64,000 nt of DNA from Candidatus Desulfofervidus auxilii (GTDB lineage Bacteria; Desulfobacterota; Desulfofervidia; Desulfofervidales; Desulfofervidaceae), in NCBI RefSeq assembly GCF_001577525.1, contig NZ_CP013015.1, positions 1,260,966 to 1,324,965 on the forward strand, in the 5' to 3' direction. Below are positions 29,129-31,365 of the stretch, in pieces (positions within the stretch are counted from its first letter, which is position 1; each line of letters begins with the position of its first letter). The notes under the pieces are model-generated. The model did not search any database and had not been told where the DNA came from. It saw only the letters and a program-made list of their open reading frames with translations. The position numbers were made by a program, and so were the translations under genes.

Positions 29129-29176
29129 GGCTTTTAGGGAGTAGAAGAATTATATAGTTATGCGGAATAAATTAGT

Positions 29177-29752
29177 ATGAGCGGTATAAATTTGAATGGA
29201 AATTGGAAAGCTGATTGGGCAATTGAATTACATACAATTAGTAGTATTCCTCTTGGCGGTGGTGTGTTTGATACGACCTATACAGAAACTGGAGAATCTT
29301 TAAATAAACTAAAATATCATAATGATTTTTCCCAAATTTCAATATTAGCACAAAAGGCTGTGGAATTCTTGAAAACAAGACTTGTAACACCTTATTTAAA
29401 TGTGATCTTACCCGTGCCTCCTTCAAATATTGACAGAGCTAGACAACCAGTTTATGAGATAGCTATAGAAATAGGTAAGTCATTAAATATTTTTGTAGAT
29501 TTTGATTATTTGTATAAAAAGAAAAAAACAGAACAATTAAAGGATATTACTGATCCAATTGAGCGAGAGGAGATTTTAAAAAATTCATTTGGGGTAAAAG
29601 ATTTACGCTATAAAGATAGCAAAGTACTTCTTTTCGATGACTTATACAGGTCTGGAGCAACATTAAGAGAAATAACGAAAGTATTATATGAAAATGGTAG
29701 AGTTCAAAACGTATATGTGTTAACTTTGACAAAAACGAGAACAAGAAGATGA
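29177..29752 (+). CDS. ComF-like phosphoribosyltransferase
   Basis: A 191-residue type I phosphoribosyltransferase resembling ComFC: LNKLKYHND in the N-terminal half, the PVPPSN strand-loop (about 78-84) and the PRPP-binding VLLFDDLYRSGATLRE (about 150-165), in which DDLYRSGAT is the signature loop. There is no zinc finger. Overlap of 4 bases with the SLOG gene shows joint translation. Both are in a segment bounded on the right by an integron attC site, so they are best read as one two-gene cassette. Its substrate is unknown; pairing with a SLOG protein suggests a nucleotide-based signal or defence role. Confidence 0.78.
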   Translation: MSGINLNGNWKADWAIELHTISSIPLGGGVFDTTYTETGESLNKLKYHNDFSQISILAQKAVEFLKTRLVTPYLNVILPVPPSNIDRARQPVYEIAIEIGKSLNIFVDFDYLYKKKKTEQLKDITDPIEREEILKNSFGVKDLRYKDSKVLLFDDLYRSGATLREITKVLYENGRVQNVYVLTLTKTRTRR

Positions 29753-30525
29753 ATGAAAAGGTTTTTATCTCGGGATCAATTTCAATAAAAAGACTCCCAA
29801 AAGAAGTTTTAAAATCTATAGATAAAATTATTGCAAAAAATTTTAAAATACTGATAGGTGATGCTAACGGCGTTGACAAACTTGTTCAGAATTACTGTTT
29901 AAAAAAACAATATTTTAACGTTACAGTTTACTCTATTTTTGAAAAACCAAGAAATAGAGCAAGTGAGAAATATGGTTTTAAAAAGATTTCTGTTGATGCT
30001 GCTTTGAAAAAAGAGATTGATAAGCAGAAACAAAAAGATAAGGCTATGACACAAGATTGTACCTATTGTTTAATAATTTGGGATGGAAAAAGTAAAGGAA
30101 GTTATAGCAATATTTTAAGAGCAATAGAATTAAATAAAAAAGCTAAAGTTTATCTCACACAGAAGAATAAATTTTTAGAACCTTATAAAATTAACAAGAA
30201 TGAAATTGAATATATATTTAGAAAAAATAATGGTTATATAGCTTCAGAAGTAATCAAATATCTAAATAAGAATGTATCTGATTATTTTAAAAATAGTCGT
30301 GATTTGTATAAATATTTGCTCAAAAAATCATTAATAAAAAAGGAAAATAATACTTATATACCAGCAGATGCTAATTCAAAAATGTTTATTGTAGAAAAAT
30401 ATAAAGGTAAACCTAAAGGTGTAAAATTCAGTAATGAATTTATCGATTGGATTGAGAATGAACTAAAATTGATTTCGAGAAAAGAAAGCAATTTTCAACT
30501 AACTTTTTTTGAAAAGAACGCATAA
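29749..30525 (+). CDS. SLOG-like nucleotide-binding protein
   Basis: A 258-residue protein whose first 150 residues look like a SLOG (Rossmann-like, YspA/DprA-related) domain: VFISGSISIKRLP opening strand, GDANGVDKLVQ (about 41-51), and CLIIWDGKSKGSYSNILRA (about 102-120), the G-S/K-x-G-S phosphate-binding pattern. The C-terminal 110 residues are Lys/Asn-rich, low in GC and unrecognised. Its stop codon lies inside the left core site of attC1, as expected for a cassette gene. SLOG proteins bind or process nucleotide derivatives; DprA and ComFC form a known pair in competence, and this pair could be analogous. Confidence 0.68.
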   Translation: MNEKVFISGSISIKRLPKEVLKSIDKIIAKNFKILIGDANGVDKLVQNYCLKKQYFNVTVYSIFEKPRNRASEKYGFKKISVDAALKKEIDKQKQKDKAMTQDCTYCLIIWDGKSKGSYSNILRAIELNKKAKVYLTQKNKFLEPYKINKNEIEYIFRKNNGYIASEVIKYLNKNVSDYFKNSRDLYKYLLKKSLIKKENNTYIPADANSKMFIVEKYKGKPKGVKFSNEFIDWIENELKLISRKESNFQLTFFEKNA

Positions 30526-30592
30526 CAAAGCGCTTCACCTGACCGCTATTCCTCTGGCGCTCCATAGCGGCAGGTGAGCTTTGTCGTTAGGC
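30520..30592 (+). mobile_element. integron attC recombination site 1
   Basis: The site runs from GCATAAC (R'' core) to GTTAGGC (R' core, 30586-30592). In between, AAAGC pairs with GCTTT, and TCACCTGACCGCTAT pairs with ATAGCGGCAGGTGA, leaving one unpaired A, the extrahelical base typical of attC. The central loop is about 14 bases. Orientation (GTTAGGC on the right) matches cassettes read on the + strand. Confidence 0.85.
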
Positions 30593-31306: not shown

Positions 31307-31365
31307 TCCTAACAAAGCAAATGCAGCCGACAGCTTACCGCTGCGGCTGATTTGCGGCGTTATGT
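31307..31365 (+). mobile_element. integron attC recombination site 2
   Basis: TCCTAAC (R'') and GTTATGT (R', 31359-31365) flank an imperfect palindrome: GCAAATGCAGCCGACAGC pairs with GCTGCGGCTGATTTGC, leaving two unpaired bases (G and A) on one arm, the usual attC asymmetry. The R' core differs from the consensus at one base. It closes the cassette of the membrane protein. Confidence 0.8.

Follow-up and report, generated by a model that had tools for sequence, protein, structure and literature searches.

A compact phosphoribosyltransferase–SLOG gene pair in an integron cassette of Candidatus Desulfofervidus auxilii and its likely kinship with ShosTA- and PsyrTA-type toxin–antitoxin modules

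Pairs of a phosphoribosyltransferase (PRTase) and a DprA/SLOG-like protein form a known kind of toxin–antitoxin or anti-phage system, which includes ShosTA, PsyrTA and RqlHI (PMC9122126; PMC4670107; PMC12593503; PDB 8zva-8zvd). A PRTase plus DprA pair protects against T7 and lambda, and its relatives act as toxin–antitoxin systems (PMC9122126). In RqlHI, RqlH requires its PRTase domain both to be toxic and to bind the antitoxin RqlI (PMC4670107). A review reports that ShosT has PRTase/pyrophosphatase activity and upsets purine metabolism, that the antitoxin ShosA binds DNA, and that T7 Gp0.7 triggers the system (PMC12593503). Integron cassettes with defence or toxin–antitoxin genes have also been reported (Darracq 2025, Kieffer 2025 and Getz 2025, as cited in PMC12444791), and the locus described here resembles them in being an attC-bearing cassette with a pair that looks like a toxin–antitoxin or defence system.

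The locus of Candidatus Desulfofervidus auxilii belongs to this broad kind, as a PRTase with an intact PRPP-binding loop stands in one operon with a protein of SLOG/DprA fold. Compared to PsyrTA and RqlHI, it shares a PRTase homologous to the C-terminal domain of PsyrT, a DprA/SLOG partner and a gene order in which the toxin comes first. However, a RecQ helicase is fused to the PRTase in those systems and is absent here, and the predicted antitoxin of 258 aa belongs to a different SLOG subfamily, bears a different tail and does not match the PsyrA model. Compared to ShosTA, the predicted folds correspond to ShosA (8zva) and ShosT (8zvb-8zvd) and the two genes likewise overlap, but the antitoxin gene comes first in ShosTA, and the 427-aa ShosT of an Escherichia coli locus (L153) has an extra N-terminal part, apparently HAD-like, that the PRTase studied here does not possess. 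The ShosA model is also unmatched by the SLOG sequence, although the fold matches 8zva, and the profile similarity of the PRTase to ShosT is weak (17% probability), which counts against a reading of the pair as a toxin–antitoxin module. Since its architecture is unlike that of both ShosTA and PsyrTA, the pair is classed with them as a kindred but compact form: its PRTase is bare, with neither RecQ nor a HAD domain, the gene of the predicted toxin precedes that of the antitoxin, and the SLOG protein belongs to a subfamily of its own in which the tails are exchanged. The ComFC–DprA pair shares the ComF-like PRTase and the DprA-like Rossmann fold, but its members are housekeeping genes, whereas the present pair is a mobile two-gene operon in a genome that has its own DprA elsewhere. 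Some PRTases of the same family also weakly match the PADLOC model PRTase_III-A of type III-A retrons.

A first-pass annotation of this DNA had pointed to ComFC and DprA as relatives, which proved to be the right structural ones in Foldseek searches. It had also suggested that the pair may be an undescribed module; this is not supported, because ShosTA, PsyrTA and RqlHI are already known, and the PRTase matches the PADLOC models of PsyrT and ShosT.

The cassette and its genomic setting

The genome is a single contig (C1) of 2,540,211 bases, and the window analysed here is a stretch of 64,000 nucleotides, C1:1260966-1324965. The features of the locus are collected in Table 1. Both open reading frames and their four-base overlap, noted in the first-pass annotation, are present, and the overlap of the PRTase stop with the SLOG start is exactly ATGA (29749-29752). 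The annotation had further placed the pair in a cassette segment ending at attC1; this site is real, at its left end it runs over the SLOG stop codon, and a second attC site follows.

Table 1. Coordinates of the features at the PRTase–SLOG locus (positions in the window)
Feature	Position	Strand	Remarks
GTTATGC, likely left cassette junction	29157..29163	+	recombination G/TT between 29157 and 29158
ComF-like PRTase, predicted toxin/effector	29177..29752	+	191 aa, ATG start
PRPP-binding loop VLLFDDLYRSGATL, PRTase residues 150-163	29624..29665	+	alignment of 33 PRTases
SLOG/DprA-like protein, predicted antitoxin	29749..30525	+	258 aa, ATG start
SLOG Rossmann-type domain, residues 1-145	29749..30183	+	36-sequence alignment and model
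SLOG C-terminal winged-helix-like domain, residues ~150-248	30196..30492	+	model, alignment; no Pfam match
QLTFF, sliding-clamp-binding-like motif, SLOG residues 250-254	30496..30510	+	low-confidence tail
attC1, R'' GCATAAC ... R' GTTAGGC	30520..30592	+	72.4 bits; in model's own training set
ORF of next cassette, 202 aa	30625..31233	+	outside module; no family match
attC2	31307..31365	+	63.5 bits; in model's own training set

The attC covariance model was built from eight sites, attC1 and attC2 among them, and gave 36 matches genome-wide, which mostly fall into two blocks close to an integron integrase gene (intI, C1:2238312; TIGR02249, 498 bits). About 0.95 Mb from this integrase, the pair makes up the first cassette of a segment with two attC sites, and its genes are followed by attC1, as in an integron gene cassette. 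The blocks near the integrase and small distant clusters of attC sites are at C1:2226739-2255382, 554051-557091, 296729-297397 and 1538172-1538851. Hydrophobic stretches in the open reading frame of the next cassette suggest a membrane protein.

The left boundary of the cassette is inferred, because no attC or attI site was recognised upstream of the pair. To judge from the sequence, it is probably the GTTATGC heptamer of Table 1; a related contig (L025) is 82% identical to the window in DNA exactly from 29158 to 30525, and the homology is absent upstream. Around other pairs, attC matches were found on both sides (L048) or at the SLOG end (L067, L092), and L025, L086 and L036 had matches that were weaker or lay farther off; these matches have E values of 3e-5 to 0.016. 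PRTase–SLOG pairs also occur on many plasmids and in viral contigs. The first-pass description of a mobile two-gene system is thus borne out by the attC-bearing cassette here and by relatives on plasmids, prophages and integrons.

The two proteins

Against the PADLOC models, the PRTase matched PsyrT (E 2e-16; PsyrT positions 538-686 only) and ShosT (E 6e-6). It also matched the NCBIfam model TIGR00201 comF (E 4.8e-11, below the curated cut-off), and its AlphaFold2 model (pLDDT 94.2) had Helicobacter pylori ComF (7p0h) as top Foldseek match, followed by ShosT (8zvb/8zvd/8zvc), all with a probability of 1.00; the earlier designation as ComF-like is sustained by the comF and 7p0h matches. In profile comparison, the PRTase family matched the PRTase part of a PsyrT from another locus (L027) with 96.9% probability (E 1.3e-10). 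The PRPP-binding loop is intact: D154 and D155 do not vary among the 33 PRTases and G160 hardly does, and the degraded catalytic residues that the first-pass annotation had named as a possible objection were not found. Pfam matches to DapH_N (E 0.041) and HlyE (E 0.024) fell below cut-off and were rejected as chance. By these comparisons, the PRTase is a relative of PsyrT and ShosT, the toxins of known toxin–antitoxin and anti-phage systems with DprA/SLOG-like antitoxins.

The SLOG protein gave no usable match in family searches with the single sequence, Pfam included, apart from a very weak one to the dprA HMM (E 0.11). No PADLOC model, neither ShosA nor PsyrA, matched it at E<=1, and a PDB sequence search yielded nothing reliable. 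The structure is clear: the AlphaFold2 model has a pLDDT of 95.5, and DprA (4ljk) and ShosA (8zva) are among its best Foldseek matches with a probability of 1.00, so the SLOG-like assignment stands on structure and the absence of such a fold, which the first-pass annotation had named as a possible objection, is not borne out by the confident model. The match takes in the Rossmann part alone, which keeps the TM-scores modest (0.36-0.40 of the query). TRPM and DXR structures, also listed, had low coverage and high rmsd and were put down to a general likeness of Rossmann-type folds.

In the Rossmann-type domain, GDAxGxD..VQ (residues 37-47) and W111xxxS115 are invariant in the 36-sequence alignment. 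The C-terminal domain, with a predicted secondary structure of H-H-H-E-E-H-E-E-H, appears winged-helix-like and is common to the SLOG proteins of the window and of L025, L026, L027, L105 and L159. The first-pass annotation had seen a Lys-rich tail here: most of it is this folded domain, and a tail in the proper sense is confined to the last ~10 residues, the only part of low model confidence (last block pLDDT 64). Across relatives the tails are modular, being absent or consisting of HTH_37, the dnstrm_HI1420 antidote HTH or the domain seen here. HTH tails are carried by SLOG proteins of plasmid pairs, among them the Pfam dnstrm_HI1420 domain, an "addiction module antidote".

A second, truncated SLOG copy lies at C1:883209-883637 (L024:7210-7632), with ~62-64% identity, a stop near residue 140 and no PRTase. 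Near it, L024:13188-13241 encodes an 18-aa fragment that is 94% identical to the SLOG start.

Conserved pairing and clamp-like motifs in the tails of the predicted antitoxins

A single-sequence contig search with the SLOG protein found no relatives, and these were then retrieved with an alignment of plasmid SLOG relatives, which recovered at least 80 genome loci and 45 viral loci. Four loci too close to an end to judge were left out. Among the matches listed, a PRTase gene was directly upstream on the same strand in 81 of the 121 evaluable SLOG loci; because it recurs in this way, the pairing is not due to chance, and the conserved co-occurrence that the first-pass annotation had suggested checking exists. 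With plasmid examples and the window added, the matches listed comprise 91 pairs, in which the gap between the genes is -4 in 33, +2 in 19 and -1 in 9; the commonest gap is the 4-bp overlap of the window itself. The hosts, as labelled, include Pseudomonadota, Acidobacteriota, Bacillota, Planctomycetes, Nitrospirae and others. These results establish the pair as real, conserved, intact and mobile.

The closest full-length SLOG relatives among the matches listed (L025, L105, L159, L026) also stand beside PRTases, the neighbour in L026 being read from its sequence as a divergent one. The closest pair among them is that of L025 (71-81% protein identity), whose contig bears an attC-like site; its Archaeoglobaceae label was not accepted as indicating an archaeal host, and the contig is possibly misbinned and derived from a bacterium related to the present genome. 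About a third of the SLOG relatives among the matches listed have no recognised PRTase neighbour, which counts against a toxin–antitoxin module; in some unpaired loci the PRTase is too divergent for the profile (L026) or lies on the other side (L027). In the latter, L027:4980-8840 encodes a SLOG protein of the window type, immediately followed by a RecQ-PRTase PsyrT (PADLOC E 2.3e-295) and then a DprA-like PsyrA (E 3.3e-78), so that one toxin stands with two different SLOG/DprA proteins. In L033:1165-2488, a SLOG protein is followed by an apparent Fic/Doc-type protein in place of the PRTase, which suggests toxin exchange. Lone SLOG domains occur in viral contigs (L106, L111, L131-L144), in some cases as part of phage proteins in which a HYGVKGQKWGVRRYQN-like stretch is repeated, and may be phage-borne antitoxin mimics or serve structural uses.

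The immediate neighbours of 48 non-redundant genomic pairs were compared with a control set. Single matches of the KwaB, MTase, LmuA, PD-T4-6 and mad6 types were found among 85 neighbours, against ~4-5 of 56 in controls (both counts are approximate, as they come from the 25 top families listed). Known defence genes thus showed no clear excess among immediate neighbours, which weighs against the preferred explanation; the association with defence islands that the first-pass annotation had suggested looking for was not clearly apparent at this range, and no argument from defence islands is made. A search of phage records gave weak PRTase matches only, and no relative of PsyrA was among them.

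The ends of the SLOG proteins are otherwise variable, but many finish in Q-x-x-[LM]-F, which resembles the sliding-clamp-binding motifs defined in PMC11139829 (canonical form Q-aliphatic-x-[LM]-[FL] or a hexapeptide). The QLTFF of the window is off-consensus at position 4, with F for the canonical L/M. The last 15 residues were searched in non-redundant paired SLOG proteins of <=205 aa (n=50 among the matches listed) and in 631 neighbouring proteins. A loose pentapeptide/hexapeptide motif was present in 32 of the 50 against 14 of the neighbours (Fisher 3.5e-31), strict Q..[LM]F in 15 against 2, and the canonical motif in 11 against 4 (p 1.2e-10); these p-values overstate the enrichment, since the regular expressions were picked after the tails had been inspected and the sequences share ancestry. 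At 50% redundancy, again among the matches listed, the loose motif remained in 13/22 and the canonical one in 6/22. The motif occurs in 39 of 68 tails among the matches listed, where shuffled tails give 9.6 +/- 2.7, and in none of 21 canonical housekeeping DprA proteins at the C terminus. HTH-tailed SLOG forms have a similar motif at about residue 180.

Comparable sequences are found in the known antitoxins. ShosA of E. coli (L153) ends in QQLSLLGDE, with a clamp-motif-like QLSLL, and the sequences in PsyrA are QLSLF (L027), QLSLL at the very end (Nostoc) and QPELF (E. coli plasmid); in Acinetobacter PsyrA the motif is not clearly present. A C-terminal Q-x-x-[LM]-[FL] recurs across antitoxin subfamilies, in SLOG proteins (L005, L045, L069, L110), ShosA (L153) and PsyrA (P0003). 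The enrichment suggests that these predicted antitoxins may dock at the replisome, and the clamp-like motif is the new part of these findings; a search of mostly open-access literature found nothing that ties these antitoxins to the sliding clamp.

Possible mode of action and alternatives

Collectively, these results make it likely that the cassette is a compact PRTase–SLOG toxin–antitoxin module, broadly of the type to which ShosTA and PsyrTA/RqlHI belong. By analogy with these relatives, the PRTase would be a toxic effector that the SLOG protein neutralises, and a role in defence or genetic conflict is plausible. The SLOG protein, with its translation coupled through the ATGA overlap, would bind the PRTase as RqlI binds the PRTase domain of RqlH, and would probably also bind DNA by its DprA-like Rossmann and winged-helix-like parts, and through its disordered end it may also dock on the sliding clamp. 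The PRTase would be set free if a phage took over the cell or the module were lost; with its loop intact it would then consume PRPP and interfere with DNA or nucleotide metabolism, to the harm of replication. Docking and trigger are purely inferred. As a tentative proposal drawn from the motifs, SLOG/DprA antitoxins of the compact subfamily, ShosA and some PsyrA may sit on the replisome by a clamp motif and guard the clamp, and a phage that upsets host replication, be it by clamp inhibitors or by fork collapse, may set the PRTase free. Apart from the points above, three observations count against a toxin–antitoxin module: the RqlH PRTase domain is not toxic in isolation (PMC4670107), the profile comparison of the SLOG family with PsyrA/ShosA reaches only 59% probability (E 9e-5), and no experiment on any member of the compact subfamily was found in the literature.

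Nested within the toxin–antitoxin reading is the possibility, which we regard as rather doubtful, that the pair is a purely selfish addiction cassette that stabilises its segment or plasmid and has no anti-phage role. The many pairs on plasmids and in attC contexts, the antidote-type HTH domains and the lack of clear enrichment of defence genes next door would agree with it, but protection against phage is known from relatives that have this type of enzyme (PMC9122126), and several pairs lie in phage-derived contigs or beside restriction genes. The first-pass annotation had suggested nucleotide signalling, in which a nucleotide signal made or consumed by the PRTase would be sensed by the SLOG protein and trigger an effect. 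SLOG domains of Thoeris ThsA do bind nucleotide-derived ligands (PMC11204291), and structures of ThsA and of TRPM2 with bound ADP-ribose stand further down the SLOG Foldseek list. However, the best structural matches are DprA/ShosA rather than ThsA, Pfam shows two proteins that lack a separate effector domain, and the PRTase–DprA pairs studied by experiment act as toxin and antitoxin; no specific evidence for signalling was found, and we consider it improbable. Least probable is an accessory role in DNA uptake like that of ComFC/DprA: the folds resemble ComF and DprA, but the genome has its own full-length DprA (C1:64381), the pairs occur on plasmids, prophages and cassettes, and the matching defence models are PsyrT/ShosT.

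A toxin–antitoxin module as the preferred reading links pairs annotated as "ComF family protein" and "hypothetical/antidote protein", which are common on plasmids, prophages and integrons but for the most part lack annotation, to the ShosTA/PsyrTA kind. The compact pair is a minimal form and hence convenient for biochemistry. The site at which these antitoxins act and the way in which infection sets off the toxin are long-open questions, and clamp docking, if true, would offer a concrete and cheap hypothesis for both, with the antitoxin tethered to DnaN.
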